NCBI GenBank assembly: GCA_026398615.1
Contig: JAPLSN010000021.1
Location: 1 to 64,000 of the forward strand
Source of the DNA: Spirochaetota bacterium
GTDB lineage: Bacteria; Spirochaetota; Spirochaetia; Treponematales; UBA12059
Length of the DNA: 64,000 nucleotides
Direction of reading: 5' to 3'
The notes beneath the pieces were generated by a model that saw nothing but the letters and a program-made list of their open reading frames with translations, was not told where the DNA came from and ran no database searches. The stretch's first letter is position 1; every line of letters starts with the position of its first letter. The position numbers and the translations under genes are program-made. This document shows positions 1 through 6,497 of the stretch, piece after piece.

Positions 1-1702
1 GGCCGACCACGAGAGCAAGACGAGCCTCAGGCTCACCATCGACAGCCTGGCGAAGGAACTGGAAGCCACCGGAACGCGCGTGGTCGCTTGTTACAACTTC
101 ACCGGTACGCCCTATGTCGACAACCACCTTATGCCCGAAGTCGTCTACGCTTATTCATTGAAGGATGCCATAGCCAACCGCTACCTAAAAACCGCTAAAG
201 TGACTCAAGTGAAGAACGCCCGCTCCCTCGAGTTCCTGCGCAATTCCTTGAAGACTTTCATAGAGGAGCATGGAGGCGCTGGCGACGATGCCATACGTTA
301 CGAGGGGATGCTACCCAAGATGGCTATCTTCTCATCTACCATCGAAGAACTTACCCAGACTTTAAAACCCCAGGTCGAAAAAGTGATCTTGGAGCTGGGA
401 CTTCCCGCCTCGTGCCTCCTTGTGAATGTCGGGGATGAAAAGCTCACGGGACCGGATGAAATACGGGAGTTCCGATCCCTCGATTCCCGCGAATCGAATA
501 AACGATTTATCCTCCTCGTCGGAAAGGGCAAGGAAGGCTGGAATTGCCGCTCTCTCTTTGCCGTCGCCCTTTTCCGGGAACCCAAGTCCAAGATCTTCGT
601 CCTCCAAGCTACCATGCGCTGCCTCAGGTCCATCACGCCGCTTCAACAACAAGGCCACGTTTTCCTCTCGGTAGAGAATTTCGAGATCCTGAAAGCCGAG
701 CTGGAAGCCAACTTCCGGCTCTCGATTGACGAGTTTCAGAGCAAGAACGATGACGGCAAGATTACCGTCACGCTTACGACCCGCAAGCCGCCGGTCTTTA
801 TCGAGGTCATCGAGCGGAAGACCATGTTCAACCTTGCGGCCAAGACGCCGAATGCGGGATTTTCGCTTGAGCTTGAGTGTCTGGATGCGAGCGACTATCG
901 GATAACCTCATCCAAATCAGATCTGCGAAATATCAGTTCAGCCGAGGGAGGAGTGAGCGACCTCAGTGCCCTGCGGGAAGATATACAATTTTCGCCATTG
1001 ATGCTCGTGGCAGAGATCGCCCGATACCTCAATAAAAGCCCGCTTCAGGTCGAGGAACTTCTCGACAACTCGAAGGAAGGCATCAAAGGTATTCTCGTTT
1101 GGGTAAATCAAGCCAACAGGATCCTCTACGAGATCGTCATCCCGCGGTTGTTCCGCGCGCTGTACACGATCAGCGAATTCCACGGCGAGCCTGAGAAGGT
1201 GCGAAAACTCCTGGTGAAAGAGCCGCCCGAAGGCGAAAGCGGCTACACAATACGGGTAGACCCCAAACTGTTCGTCTCCGAGAGCGAGCCTGAGTACCAC
1301 GCGTATTCCGAGCGTTCGTTCCACGTATCCGGCTATAGCTTCGACTCCGGTCCGGAACTTGATTTTTTCAAGCTGAACCTTCCGAATGCCGCGATAAAGA
1401 AAATCTGGTTCACCGGCATGCTCACCCATGGCCAGACCGAATTCATGGTTCACTACATCGATCCCGACTCGAGCGCCTTGCGCGCTTACTACCCGGACTT
1501 CCTGATCGAGCTCGAGGACGGGCACTTCCTCATCGTCGAGGTCAAAGGCGACCATATGCTGGATGATCCGGTAACCCAAGCCAAGAAGGAGTACGCGACG
1601 AAAATGGCCGACGAGAGCCGGATGCGGTATGTTCTCCTGCCAAGCAGCAAGGCTGGGCAGAGAATCGAGCACTACCTTGCCACCCAAGGAAACGCGCGGT
1701 GA
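1..1702 (+). CDS. ResIII-type helicase/nuclease subunit, 5' truncated by window
   Basis: C-terminal part of a large superfamily-2 helicase fused to a nuclease, of the kind found in type III-like restriction systems. The reading frame is open to the window's first bases, so the N-terminal Walker motifs lie outside. Visible parts are an NFTGTPY motif (helicase motif III-like), a motif V/VI region with KEGWNC and QATMRCLR, and near the C-terminus a PD-(D/E)XK nuclease core (YYPDF, then EVKGDH about 20 residues on). Its stop overlaps the start of the adenine methylase by 4 nt, so the two are translationally coupled. Composition is nearer the host than the three genes after it. Family assignment is firm; the role in defence is inferred from the neighbours. 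Confidence 0.85.
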   Translation, partial: ADHESKTSLRLTIDSLAKELEATGTRVVACYNFTGTPYVDNHLMPEVVYAYSLKDAIANRYLKTAKVTQVKNARSLEFLRNSLKTFIEEHGGAGDDAIRYEGMLPKMAIFSSTIEELTQTLKPQVEKVILELGLPASCLLVNVGDEKLTGPDEIREFRSLDSRESNKRFILLVGKGKEGWNCRSLFAVALFREPKSKIFVLQATMRCLRSITPLQQQGHVFLSVENFEILKAELEANFRLSIDEFQSKNDDGKITVTLTTRKPPVFIEVIERKTMFNLAAKTPNAGFSLELECLDASDYRITSSKSDLRNISSAEGGVSDLSALREDIQFSPLMLVAEIARYLNKSPLQVEELLDNSKEGIKGILVWVNQANRILYEIVIPRLFRALYTISEFHGEPEKVRKLLVKEPPEGESGYTIRVDPKLFVSESEPEYHAYSERSFHVSGYSFDSGPELDFFKLNLPNAAIKKIWFTGMLTHGQTEFMVHYIDPDSSALRAYYPDFLIELEDGHFLIVEVKGDHMLDDPVTQAKKEYATKMADESRMRYVLLPSSKAGQRIEHYLATQGNAR

Positions 1703-2553
1703 GCGGTTCCGTTTCAACACCCGGACAACCGGATACTCAGGCTCTTGTTCCCTTCCTGAAGTGGGCTGGAGGAAAAAGATGGCTTATTCGGAATCACCGA
1801 GATTTTTTTCCTTCAAGCCTCAAAGGTACTTACTTCGAGCCTTTCTTAGGGGGTGGATCGGTTTTCAGCTCGTTAAGACCCCCCCAAAGCGTCTTATCCG
1901 ATAGTAATGGGGAATTGATCAATACATATCTTCAAATAAAGAGACATTGGAAGCACATCGATGAAGGACTCGCACTACTTCAAATCCATCATTCCTCGGA
2001 ATTCTATTACAAGATTCGAAATAGAAAAAATACTAATCCGTTGAAACGGGCACTACGTTTTCTCTATCTGAACAGAACCTGCTATAATGGTCTATATCGG
2101 GTGAATAAAAATGGTGATTTCAATGTACCGATCGGCACAAGGTCGACGATTGTTCGGCCGGAAGACGATTACCAAGGATGGTCAAAAGCTTTAAGAAGTA
2201 CGGAACTCGTGGTGTCGGATTTCGAACCGATGATACAACACGCAGGCAAAGGGGATCTCATATTCGCGGATCCCCCTTATACCATTCTCCATAACCAAAA
2301 TTGTTTTTTAAAGTACAATGAAGTTCTTTTTTCCTGGAACGACCAACTCAGGCTTGCGGAAACACTCTGGAAAGCGGCTAAAAGAGGAGCAAAAATTATT
2401 GCCACGAACGCGAATTGTCAATCAGTTCGTGATCTATACGAGGGGCGATTCAAGATTGATGTTATATGCCGTGCCAGCACAATCGCAGCATCCTCAGGAA
2501 AGCGCGGATTGTTCGAAGAAATAGTAATCAGTTCGAAAGGAGAATCACGATGA
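1699..2553 (+). CDS. D12-class DNA adenine N6-methyltransferase (Dam-like)
   Basis: Predicted 284-residue DNA adenine methylase. It has the D12-class N-terminal SAM motif (FLKWAGGKRW, about residue 22), an F-LGGGSVF segment, and the catalytic DPPY tetrad in FADPPYTI at about residue 194. GTG start overlapping the previous TGA (GTGA). It lacks the beta-class layout of a normal type III Mod subunit and shows no separate target-recognition domain, so pairing with a ResIII-type partner is unusual. It probably protects host DNA from the helicase/nuclease and perhaps from the HerA/NurA pair. Base composition is clearly AT-richer than the rest of the window, a sign of transfer. Confidence 0.88.
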   Translation: MSGSVSTPGQPDTQALVPFLKWAGGKRWLIRNHRDFFPSSLKGTYFEPFLGGGSVFSSLRPPQSVLSDSNGELINTYLQIKRHWKHIDEGLALLQIHHSSEFYYKIRNRKNTNPLKRALRFLYLNRTCYNGLYRVNKNGDFNVPIGTRSTIVRPEDDYQGWSKALRSTELVVSDFEPMIQHAGKGDLIFADPPYTILHNQNCFLKYNEVLFSWNDQLRLAETLWKAAKRGAKIIATNANCQSVRDLYEGRFKIDVICRASTIAASSGKRGLFEEIVISSKGESR

Positions 2554-4523
2554 AACAATTCCTTGAGAAAGCGTCCTATCAAGAAAACCCGCTCAGATAC
2601 GTATATGATTTCATGGAAAATGAAAAACGGATCGAGTCTGCGGAACAATACGATGATATGCGGTTCGTTGGCTACGTGATGGACATTGGATACGACTCGG
2701 CGAGGATAATCACCTCTGATCCCTATAAGCGAGCCGTAGGTGGAATACCCAAAGGTTCGTTCTTGATTATGGTTCCCGAATCCTTGGACAATCTGGCTCC
2801 GCACTTCTCCCTCCTTCGCGTCGAGGATGTAGCTCCCACGCCATTGACGCCTCAGGTCCAGCAAACCTATTTTGAGCTCCACAAAAAATCCATGCCTAAT
2901 CTAGACGTTTGGACCCAGCAGGAACTTCAGTGGGGTGCCTTGAATACAAAGGTCCTTGGCATGTTCTATCCAGATCCAGCGGATAGCTCGAAACTATCCT
3001 TCTCTGGGGATGTGAATACCATTGTAAGCGCCCATAGATATCGGATCTTTGCTCCTGATAAAAAGCTCCTTGAACTGATCGTAAACGGGATAGTCCGAAC
3101 AGAACGGCAAGTTGAAATCGGCATGCTTCGAATGACGGAATGTCGTCTTCCATTTGCTGGATTCACAGCATATGAAGTGCCCGTCAAGATTTCCGTGCGA
3201 GATTTTCAGGGATTCAGGACTGCTATGTTCGGCAAGACTCGTTTGGGTAAGTCAAATGTCGTTAAACTAATTGCGCAAGCCGCTATCGAGGCCACGCAGG
3301 ATCATCGAAATATTGGCCAGCTTATCTTTGATATTAATGGAGAGTATGCCAACGATAATCCTCAGGATGGGAATAAATCGATTCGCAGCAAGCATGCAAG
3401 TAGATGCAAGGTATACGCCCTGAATCCGAGAGAGGGTGCTGATTATGCAAAACAACTGATGCTGAATTTCTATGAGCAGCCAGAGTCGTGCATTGAGGTC
3501 CTCGCGTCACTCCTCGCTCTAGATAAACGGAATTCCATCTATATCAAGAGTTTTTCCAGCGTTAAGTTACCTACAATTCAAGAAATCCTTACCCTCCCCG
3601 CAGGAGAAAAAACACGGCCAATAAGAAAAATACAGCTATACTGGGCGATCTTAAGAGCTGCAGGATTTGATGCGGATGAAAAAAGGCTCCGCGAACTAGG
3701 GTTAAGAGGCCCGCATACTCATGATTTTGATCCACATTTCAACGATACACTTAGGAATGCGGCATATAGCAACAATTCTGGCGGTGTTCCTCCCGCACCG
3801 AACAGCCTCTCTCAGCTAGTCCAAGAGCTAATAGCTATCGACAACTACAGAAAAACGAATCTCAATAATGCCTTATTGTTTTCCAAATCATCTGGCGATC
3901 CTATATTCGACTCAGACGATATTGCATTACTGGGTTTCCTAAATCCTGATTCGGGCGCCGGCCCAGCGGTTTTACGAGCTTTTTTAAAGTACCATTCTTC
4001 GCAGGCAGGAGATTTCATCAAAGAGATAATCGATTCGCTTGATAGTGGTGAAACAGTAATACTAGATCTTGGCAATGCTACCGATGAAATTCGACGTTAT
4101 TTCTCTGACATGTTATCAAAAGCGGTTTTCTCAAGGCAGGAAGAAAAATTCGTTTCCAACCAACTTAGTGATAATTTTGTTCAACTCTACTTCGAAGAGG
4201 CTCACAATCTTTTTCCACGCGATAATAAGGATTTGACGGATGTCTATTCCAGATTCGCCAAGGAAGGCGCAAAATTCCATATCGGAATGGTCTATTCAAC
4301 CCAATCGCCATCGACTATTTCACAAGAACTACTGGCGCAAACAGAAAATTTCTTTGTCGGCCATCTCTCTTCCCAAGACGAAGTAAATGCATTAAGCAGG
4401 GTACAAATAGCCTATGAAGGTATTGGAGAAGAGATAATGAAATCAAAAACGCCTGGTTACATGAGAATGCTGACATTCTCCCATAGGTTTGTCGTACCCG
4501 TGCAAGCCTTCAAGTTCGAGTAA
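2550..4523 (+). CDS. HerA-like hexameric ATPase/translocase (DUF87)
   Basis: Predicted DNA-pumping ATPase of the HerA/FtsK superfamily, 657 residues. Walker A is FGKTRLGKSN (Gly at about residue 228); Walker B is LYFEEAHN with acidic pair at about 549-550; the STQSPS sensor-like segment follows, as in HerA proteins. An N-terminal beta-barrel (HAS-like) region precedes the ATPase. The open frame extends 84 nt further upstream, but the ATG chosen overlaps the methylase stop (ATGA) and has AAAGGAG about 8 nt before it. The next gene encodes a NurA-like nuclease, the usual HerA partner. In archaea the pair resects DNA ends; in bacteria it occurs in defence loci. AT-rich relative to the chromosome. 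Confidence 0.87.
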   Translation: MKQFLEKASYQENPLRYVYDFMENEKRIESAEQYDDMRFVGYVMDIGYDSARIITSDPYKRAVGGIPKGSFLIMVPESLDNLAPHFSLLRVEDVAPTPLTPQVQQTYFELHKKSMPNLDVWTQQELQWGALNTKVLGMFYPDPADSSKLSFSGDVNTIVSAHRYRIFAPDKKLLELIVNGIVRTERQVEIGMLRMTECRLPFAGFTAYEVPVKISVRDFQGFRTAMFGKTRLGKSNVVKLIAQAAIEATQDHRNIGQLIFDINGEYANDNPQDGNKSIRSKHASRCKVYALNPREGADYAKQLMLNFYEQPESCIEVLASLLALDKRNSIYIKSFSSVKLPTIQEILTLPAGEKTRPIRKIQLYWAILRAAGFDADEKRLRELGLRGPHTHDFDPHFNDTLRNAAYSNNSGGVPPAPNSLSQLVQELIAIDNYRKTNLNNALLFSKSSGDPIFDSDDIALLGFLNPDSGAGPAVLRAFLKYHSSQAGDFIKEIIDSLDSGETVILDLGNATDEIRRYFSDMLSKAVFSRQEEKFVSNQLSDNFVQLYFEEAHNLFPRDNKDLTDVYSRFAKEGAKFHIGMVYSTQSPSTISQELLAQTENFFVGHLSSQDEVNALSRVQIAYEGIGEEIMKSKTPGYMRMLTFSHRFVVPVQAFKFE

Positions 4524-4535
4524 GGGGAGAGTGTT

Positions 4536-5873
4536 ATGCCATATCAAGCAGGTCAGCGCCTTGGAGCTGAGCAGGCATCGAAACTCGGGCATCTCGATGT
4601 GTTACAAAGCAAGTTTGTCCAGGATGTTATTGCATCATTCGAACAACCCGAACTTGAACCCGGGGATACATCATCAACTCCATGGATACCTTTCACCGGA
4701 GAGCATAAACCGCTTCGATATATTTTCGCCGTTGATGGTTCGCTTCAGGTACTCAAGTCGGAAGGAGTTATATGTAGAGAAGTTGCCTTTGTTAAAACCG
4801 CACTTCTTCATCTAGACCCGAATGAAATTGCGAGTCTAGATCCAGAGTATCCACATCCTAACGCTCTTCGAAAAATCATGACGAACTCCGCACTTTTCCA
4901 TGCAACTGTTTTTCCACTAAAAAATATTCGTATCGAGAGGGTACCATGGATGGAGGGTGTTCGCAATCTTATTTTTGAATCATTACGAGATCCAACGCTT
5001 GAGGGTGAACCCTATAAAACATTGAAATGGCTCTTGTACCAGAAATGGGACTCAGACCTTCACTCCTCATCGCCGAGCTTTGAGTGCCCAGTTTGTCATA
5101 AAGAGCAAACAGGGTTACCCTACGATTCCGACCATATGGTTTGTGCAAATTGCAATTCGAAATTGTTTGTATCCGATGTCCTAGGTCTTCACATGGAGAT
5201 GGCAGACGATGGTGCCGCCGAGTCGCTGGCAAATGCCTATATGCTAATCCATGAAAATCTAATGCTTTTCACAGCGATACGCTATTTTTGGGAGCAGGGT
5301 AACACGAAAGTTCTCAAGGATACTTTGTTTATTAAAGATGGCCCGCTTACTCTCCGGGCGCAGTATTCCAAGATGATTCCGAATATACGATCTTTCCTTG
5401 CTTTTGCAAATTCTCGCGATTGCCCAATACACATTTGCGGGCAGGAAAAGACCGGTAAGTTTGTGGATCATCTGGCAAGCATTGTCCGATATGCCGCACC
5501 TCAAAAGAATGGAGACAAGGCGAATCTGGCAATATTATCACATCGCTTCATTCGCGACGAAGTTCAACGAGTGCAGGCGGGTGTCTATCCATACGGATGC
5601 AAGACAAATTACGGAGAAAAGGTTTATATAAAACTTAATCCTCATCATGCACTCGTCTTGAGCATACCAACCGGAGAGTACTTGAATCATGAGGACTCTC
5701 CGTCAGAAGTTCCTGATTTTATCGGCTTGGAGCGGATAATCGCAACTTTACCTGGACTCGTCAGTTACCGCCATGAATGTGCCCTGGTACCGATCGAGCT
5801 CGTAAATGGAATAGCGTCTCTTTCAAACTATCCATCGGCGAAGGTATTAAAGCTTTTTGCGAGATTAGTTTGA
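4536..5873 (+). CDS. NurA-domain nuclease with internal zinc ribbon
   Basis: Predicted 445-residue nuclease partner of the HerA ATPase. The N-terminal half carries the NurA signature AVDGS (Asp at about residue 67), expected to bind the catalytic manganese. A four-cysteine zinc ribbon (CPVC at 184-187, CANC at 203-206) sits in the middle, and the C-terminal region (LVPIELVNGIASLS) matches the closing NurA helix. It follows herA by 12 nt with a GGGGAG ribosome-binding site. The zinc ribbon is not part of the minimal archaeal NurA and may bind DNA or a partner. Identification rests on motif and context; the family diverges strongly, so DNase activity is likely but not certain. Confidence 0.72.
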   Translation: MPYQAGQRLGAEQASKLGHLDVLQSKFVQDVIASFEQPELEPGDTSSTPWIPFTGEHKPLRYIFAVDGSLQVLKSEGVICREVAFVKTALLHLDPNEIASLDPEYPHPNALRKIMTNSALFHATVFPLKNIRIERVPWMEGVRNLIFESLRDPTLEGEPYKTLKWLLYQKWDSDLHSSSPSFECPVCHKEQTGLPYDSDHMVCANCNSKLFVSDVLGLHMEMADDGAAESLANAYMLIHENLMLFTAIRYFWEQGNTKVLKDTLFIKDGPLTLRAQYSKMIPNIRSFLAFANSRDCPIHICGQEKTGKFVDHLASIVRYAAPQKNGDKANLAILSHRFIRDEVQRVQAGVYPYGCKTNYGEKVYIKLNPHHALVLSIPTGEYLNHEDSPSEVPDFIGLERIIATLPGLVSYRHECALVPIELVNGIASLSNYPSAKVLKLFARLV

Positions 5874-5927
5874 TCGCTGGTCAATACTCCAAACGCCGCC
5901 CTCGATCGTCCCTTCCAAGGAGGTACC

Positions 5928-6417
5928 GTGGCCAGAGTGTTGATGGTGGTTGCACCCGAACGGTTTCGGGACTCAGGCGGTCCTCGAGGCAAGCGGGCAC
6001 TCCGTTGTCATGGCGAGCACGCGCATCGGTGAGTGTTCGGGGTCACGCGGCGGGACCGTGTATGCCGAAGTGACCTTGGTTTCCCAGCGAGCCGCGGACT
6101 ACGACGCACTCGTTTTCGTGGGTGGTGGAGGGTCGAAACTGCTGTGGCAGGACGATGACGCACTGCATCTGGCTCGTGAAGCGGCGGCGAGCGCTAGGGT
6201 TCTCGCCGCGATTTGCCTGGCACCGGTGATCCTGGCCAATGCCGGCGTGCTCCAAGGCCGCAGGGCGACGGTGGCAGGAACGGAAGCGCGTACCATTGAG
6301 GCCGGCGGAGCCACCTACACCGGTCCGGGAGTGACTGTCGACGGGAACATCGTCACTGCCAATGGTCCCAGGAGTTCAACGTTGTTCGGACAGCGCATCG
6401 ACGAGTTGTTGGCATGA
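5928..6417 (+). pseudogene. DJ-1/PfpI-family protein with N-terminal frameshift
   Basis: A DJ-1/PfpI-like glutamine-amidotransferase-fold protein. A strong AAGGAGG lies 3 nt before a GTG whose frame reads VARVLMVVAPERFRD, the expected first strand; the rest (AVLEASGHSVVMAST onward, nucleophile elbow AAICLAP) is in the +1 frame from about position 5970. Compared with the family, several residues between the two parts are also missing. The downstream frame has an in-frame ATG at 5950, but that start would lose the first beta strand. Either the gene is decaying at the edge of the AT-rich island, or the assembly has an error here. Confidence 0.65.
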
Positions 6418-6497
6418 AACGCCTGCAGCGGAGGCAGATCGCGCGGGCTCAGCCCTCGCGGGAGAACGCACAGGCGCGCGGAAGTCCGGAGGAATGG

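Follow-up and report, generated by a model that had tools for sequence, protein, structure and literature searches.

A D12 methylase-HerA-NurA operon at a spirochaete contig end as a probable base-methylation counterpart of the Tdp system

Do four tightly packed genes at the end of a spirochaete contig make up one defence system or two? The window analysed here is a stretch of 64,000 nucleotides from a Spirochaetota bacterium (contig JAPLSN010000021.1, here C1), whose first base is the left end of its contig in a genome of 3.38 Mb and 43 contigs. An earlier note, made from the sequence alone, had described a ResIII helicase/nuclease (Res), a D12 methylase, a HerA translocase and a NurA nuclease as a single composite defence operon. 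The four open reading frames (ORFs) exist, their motifs are intact, and they overlap or nearly touch as described: 4-nt overlaps join Res to D12 and D12 to HerA, and 12 nt separate HerA from NurA. We find two systems instead of one. The trio of D12, HerA and NurA (1699-5873) is likely to be a self-contained, mobile restriction-modification (R-M) system that uses base methylation where the Tdp system of thermophiles (TdpA-TdpB-TdpC) uses another mark, while Res pairs with the type III methylase Mod on another contig, C5.

D12, HerA and NurA form one conserved operon. Our scan of 84,980 species genomes returned 503 relatives of HerA (about 0.6%), and the best 80, at 50-70% identity, were kept for comparison. 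D12 is found directly upstream of HerA in 76 of the 78 loci with an intact upstream side (74 by ORF calls, L094 and L095 by tblastn); it stands two genes away in L042 and is absent from L093. NurA follows HerA directly in all 75 loci with an intact downstream side (L096 by tblastn). The exact 4-nt overlap of D12 stop and HerA start recurs in 21 of 74 loci, the gaps between HerA and NurA are mostly 0-20 nt, and the pairwise identities of the proteins are correlated (HerA-NurA 0.82, HerA-D12 0.70, NurA-D12 0.68). The 80 relatives come from about 18 phyla, a host range much wider than that of Tdp: Pseudomonadota, Bacillota, Bacteroidota, Actinomycetota, Chloroflexota, Acidobacteriota, Nitrospirota, Cyanobacteriota, Deinococcota, Planctomycetota, Myxococcota, Thermodesulfobacteriota, Campylobacterota, Saccharimonadota, Atribacterota, Spirochaetota and several archaeal lineages. 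The system is rare, and the trio was found in none of 397 other sampled Pseudomonadota genomes. A collection of 2.9 million viral contigs held eight HerA matches, and in five of these D12 immediately precedes HerA and NurA follows it; eight viral relatives against 503 in the cellular collection points to a function that serves the host and not the phage. More distant HerA-NurA pairs likewise adjoin DNA methyltransferases, some of them of other classes.

Some individual loci have features of their own. Two genes separate D12 and HerA in Halomonas stenophila (L042:4664-11301), and one of these, encoding 394 amino acids, appears by eye to be DndB/DGQHR-like. On the Deferribacter megaplasmid pDF308 (L017:5126-8924) an IS200/IS605 element with TnpB interrupts HerA in a methylase-HerA-NurA set. 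The temperate Vibrio phage 10N.286.54.E5_PE002 (L018:1-5751) has HerA, annotated as two ORFs, with NurA and a convergent methylase beside an integrase; in 10N.286.55.C4_PE001 the HerA match is in one piece. A distant Treponema D12-HerA-NurA set (L013:2758-12018) adjoins sbcDC, and the near-identical set in L014 has different neighbours, which suggests recent mobility.

The two proteins of the presumed ring both resemble their Tdp counterparts. HerA has a DUF87 domain (Pfam, 1.4e-11) and the intact Walker A (GKTRLGKS) and YFEEAH motifs of a HerA translocase. Its best match in the PDB is TdpA (8wet_A; phmmer 2e-26, profile 1.2e-38, profile-profile comparison 1.7e-40), the next by phmmer being 8xau at 2.7e-11. 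The AlphaFold2 (AF2) model, with a predicted local distance difference test score (pLDDT) of 84.4, matched TdpA at 3.3e-29 in Foldseek and with a VIA Z of 31, the plain HerA 8xau being close at 29.8. Sequence and predicted structure thus agree on a TdpA-type HerA ring ATPase. NurA has no family match in Pfam or NCBIfam and its PADLOC match is at chance level; that match, to Cas10 (E 0.0058), covers residues 172-217, the zinc ribbon region only, and was treated as chance. Structure prediction was needed because a profile search against PDB sequences gave nothing other than chance matches to zinc ribbons. The AF2 model (pLDDT 88.1) found TdpB (8wfd_G) at 2.9e-9 in Foldseek and with a VIA Z of 20.7 over 317 residues, the next NurA being that of Sso at 14.8. 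Its matches to TdpB and to the Sso, Tko, Pfu and Dra NurA proteins give it the NurA fold, and the predicted structure is that of a TdpB-type nuclease; by sequence the match to TdpB is weak (E 0.02). The acidic residues D67, E240 and D268 are invariant in 72 sequences. So are C184, C203 and C206 of the zinc ribbon, and C187 is present in 65 of the 72 (90%). The ribbon that the earlier note saw inside NurA is real, and in those sequences it is a family-wide feature. The Thermus TdpB proteins have no CxxC motif.

The third gene supplies the modifying enzyme. D12 carries the domain of its class (Pfam MethyltransfD12, 1.3e-49; TIGR00571 Dam, 4e-67) with the GGK and DPPY motifs of Dam and DpnM; DPPY is invariant in 74 sequences and intact in the window copy. 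Its best PDB match is DpnM (2dpm, 2.5e-46), aligned over the full length. K21 (LKWAGGK), L132 and R134 (NGLYRVN) and P144 (FNVP) align with DpnM and with E. coli Dam, and the GRY segment does not; of the positions that Dam uses to read GATC, most are kept in D12. The D12 proteins fall into two main subtypes, KWAGGK...NG[IL]YRVN...FNVP and RYPGGK...KGMWRHN...FNVG, suggesting that target sites differ. One clear methylase exchange was seen, in L033, where HerA and NurA are 75% and 70-71% identical to close relatives and D12 is 33-34% identical.

Tdp (8wet, 8wfd, 8y1k) is the best solved match for both HerA and NurA, and it too is a compact operon of three genes, for a HerA-type ring, a NurA-fold nuclease and an enzyme that modifies DNA. 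It differs in its mark, for it modifies DNA through the PP-loop phosphorothioate enzyme TdpC whereas the trio has the D12 adenine methylase; neither the genome of the spirochaete nor any of the 80 relative loci gave a match to TdpC. The Thermus tdp loci that we recovered read TdpC-TdpB-TdpA, with the PP-loop TdpC in the place of D12, against D12-HerA-NurA here, and their TdpB is without the zinc ribbon that NurA has. HerA is about 20% identical to TdpA, and NurA 11-13% identical to TdpB. TdpAB, the restriction pair of that system, reportedly degrades phage DNA that is free of phosphorothioate, and the modification inhibits it. A comparable scheme with another self-mark is the simplest explanation for the trio. 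D12 would methylate adenine on host DNA, probably at GATC or a related site; HerA would assemble into a hexameric ring, translocating on duplex DNA; and NurA, docked on that ring as the nuclease, would degrade the DNA. Host DNA would be spared because it is methylated, while unmethylated incoming phage or plasmid DNA would be destroyed. The mark might be read either by D12, bound where a site is unmodified, or by a ring that itself senses N6-methyladenine (6mA), and the exchange in L033 and the two D12 subtypes make methylase-directed targeting the slightly better fit.

HerA with a SIR2 or DUF4297 partner is an established anti-phage arrangement (PMC11291478; references in PMC12977600). SIR2-HerA (Nezha) and HerA-DUF4297 likewise set a HerA ring and an effector partner against phage, but they have no methylase and a more distant HerA (8xau at 2.7e-11 against TdpA at 2e-26), and the partner of HerA in the window has the NurA fold rather than SIR2 or DUF4297. 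PMC10853773 and PMC12839542 discuss 'capture' systems based on HerA/FtsK, and NurA is mentioned in neither. In the literature and libraries searched, D12-HerA-NurA is nowhere described as a defence system; Iyer 2004 (FtsK-HerA), Makarova 2011 (defence islands) or the Tdp paper may mention it.

The neighbourhood of the operon is also one of defence genes. We compared 138 flanking proteins from 20 genomes with 136 far-off proteins of the same contigs: at E<=1e-20 the flanks matched 131 PADLOC models and the controls four, one of which (mad3) matches eight proteins, probably through generic ATPase similarity. The flank models include type III and type II methylases, KwaA, ShosA, PsyrA, AriA, DrmD and DruM2; components of type III R-M, Kwa, Shosta, PsyrTA, PARIS, DISARM and Druantia are among them. 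Integrase cores, N6_N4_Mtase, RadC and PD-(D/E)XK are among the commonest Pfam families of the flanks; those of the controls are ABC transporters and hydrolases. The earlier note had asked whether its gene order recurs in unrelated genomes near other defence genes. The order of the trio does so, and the gene families, the surroundings of the operon and its homology to TdpAB lend good support to the defence role that the note proposed. The trio is a conserved unit, probably with a defensive function.

What, then, of Res? Because the first base of the window is a contig end, the gene is truncated there (566 of an expected 882 or so amino acids). Bases 1-266 match the final 266 bases of contig C5 with 15 mismatches (94%) and the frame preserved, and match nothing further elsewhere in the genome; the 6% difference suggests a strain mixture at the contig break. 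From this 266-bp, 94% overlap we infer the join of C5 and C1 that lies behind the reconstructed Res. The N-terminal 404 amino acids, with the ResIII domain (7.3e-8), are encoded at C5:41476-42688, and the joined protein would have about 882 amino acids against 866-911 in relatives. The window piece matches REase_III in PADLOC (1.7e-5) and a TnsA-like nuclease (2.5e-5), and Pfam finds in it the C-terminal TnsA-like nuclease only, slightly below the cut-off. Of the helicase/nuclease described in the earlier note, the nuclease part therefore lies in the window and the ResIII domain on C5. That contig also supplies the genes left of the window that the note wished to see. They are, in order and on one strand, an AddA-like UvrD helicase of 970 amino acids carrying a PD-(D/E)XK nuclease, an AbiLi-like AAA ATPase, AbiLii/RloB, Mod (N6_N4_Mtase, 5e-53) and the N-terminus of Res. 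Provided that C5 and C1 join, a Res with a ResIII domain lies beside Mod in a type III R-M system. Gene order across the join assigns gene 2-1702 and its C5 neighbours to this AddA-Mod-Res module, separate from D12-HerA-NurA; D12, which the note had taken for the methylase partner of Res, goes with HerA and NurA. Base composition changes at the same place. The GC values of D12 (0.440), HerA (0.446) and NurA (0.450) are below those of Res (0.546), Mod (0.511) and the chromosome (0.646), in agreement with the AT-richness noted earlier, and they locate the break at the border of Res and D12.

It could still be argued that AddA, AbiL, Mod, Res, D12, HerA and NurA make up one composite defence machine, for every gene of the island overlaps or nearly touches the next. 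Homologues of AddA-Mod-Res adjoin the trio in four of the 80 loci (Res 42-54% identical), upstream and in the order seen here in L046, L054 and L059 and downstream in L057, and in L054, a Treponema locus, Res and D12 share the same 4-nt overlap. Against this, the trio is without Mod-Res in the other 76 loci, the GC step falls between the two halves, and on the HerA tree the four unions and the window occupy five separate places. Of 392 other spirochaete genomes sampled, five carry Mod, and none of the five had a NurA match. The five tree places and the presence of Mod without the trio suggest that the modules join repeatedly as defence-island neighbours and are not obligate partners, and we regard a composite machine as improbable. 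The four-gene system of the earlier note was rejected on like grounds: the partner of Res is Mod, on C5, and in most loci the trio occurs by itself. The note had reasoned that halves found apart in relatives would make their union here a matter of chance; they are apart in most relatives, but a union that recurs is not pure chance. With the trio directly behind AddA-AbiL-Mod-Res, the block may be one transcription unit holding three independent defence systems.

Two further readings keep the trio together and give it another task. It might serve in DNA end processing or repair, a role suggested for the HerA-NurA pairs of archaea and Deinococcus, with its Dam-like methylase acting in regulation, since it belongs to the HerA-NurA families, whose complexes have mostly been investigated for their part in end resection (PMC9960219, PMC4641729). 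The archaeal and Deinococcus pairs (7f6d, 9x1m, 3taz, 2ygk) are of the same two families, but they have no methylase, their NurA proteins score lower in structure (Z 10 to 15 against 20.7 for TdpB), and the published linkage of the archaeal genes to mre11-rad50 was not seen here, blastp at E 1e-5 having found no Mre11/Rad50 (SbcC/SbcD) homologues in the 80 loci. The patchy presence of the trio, its transfer across phyla, its defence-island context and its tight link to a methylase speak against repair too, and a 2026 paper on the archaeal complex itself makes the case for antiviral DNA degradation and against resection (PMC12977600); a repair role is accordingly unlikely. The other reading is export of DNA by a mobile element, as in the tdtA operon of Thermus ICEth1 (Tth111II, a NurA-like nuclease, the HerA-family TdtA and an N4/N6 methylase), which is required for DNA donation between cells (PMC5365140); one Thermaceae genome (L117) also has a HerA-N4 methylase pair. 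That operon differs in its methylase class (PF01555) and in its extra type IIG enzyme as well as in its published role (PMC5365140). The trio lies mostly among defence genes, its HerA is closest to TdpA, and transfer genes are present neither at this locus nor among the recurrent neighbours in the Pfam tally, which leaves DNA export a shade less probable even than repair.

Several observations nonetheless weigh against the trio as an R-M system. HerA and NurA have no recognised specificity element, HerA-NurA complexes act in DNA end processing as well, and two cyanobacterial plasmid HerA-NurA pairs that we inspected have no adjacent methylase. The figures of 131 and four count models and not proteins, one methylase can match many of them, and the 20 flank loci include two near-identical copies from Xanthomonas. 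ICEth1 shows that a NurA-HerA-methylase operon can be needed for DNA donation (PMC5365140).

If the trio is an R-M system, it adds a widespread type that current defence finders miss, given a NurA without a Pfam or NCBIfam model and at chance level in PADLOC, and a HerA with weak matches to models of other systems only. We see about an even chance that it represents an uncharacterised cross-domain class of R-M in which a processive HerA-NurA ring, in place of a site-specific endonuclease, destroys DNA that lacks adenine methylation. The trio, Tdp and further sets of HerA, NurA and a methylase would then make up a family of 'ring-shredder' systems whose self-marks are interchangeable (phosphorothioate, 6mA and possibly other base marks). 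TdpAB and HerA-NurA would be related machines paired with chemically different marks, so that the way in which a translocating ring tells marked from unmarked DNA could be tested directly.

Table 1. Features at the left end of the window
Feature	Position	Strand	Remarks
Type III Res, C-terminal part	2-1702	+	open from base 2, 566 aa
D12-class N6-adenine DNA methyltransferase, DpnM/Dam-like	1699-2553	+	284 aa, GTG start
HerA-type hexameric DNA translocase, TdpA-like	2550-4523	+	657 aa
NurA-family nuclease, TdpB-like	4536-5873	+	445 aa
Zinc-ribbon insertion within NurA	5085-5153	+	C184, C187, C203, C206

The HerA start given in Table 1 replaces one at 2466 and lies in an ATGA shared with the stop of D12. 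Between the stretches tested at the two ends of the island, no direct repeat exceeded 8 bp. For an empty-site comparison the nearest genomes are of the same family or order, their neighbouring proteins being about 41-51% identical and none closer; similar DNA was not found in E. coli genomes. Upstream, Gabija was considered for the UvrD protein and rejected, as its GajB match covers the helicase domain only and the AddA-like PD-(D/E)XK end speaks against it. The AbiL pair between the AddA-like gene and Mod (C5:37743-39669, L003:4744-6670; AbiLi 3e-88, AbiLii/RloB 5.8e-24) begins with an AbiLi ORF that starts within the 3' end of the AddA gene, and an AAA-RloB pair also lies downstream of D12-HerA-NurA in L071. 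Directly 3' of NurA, a DJ-1/PfpI-like gene (5923-6420) looks broken, its start and its remainder being in different frames, and this may reflect either a disruption at the right end of the island or an assembly error.

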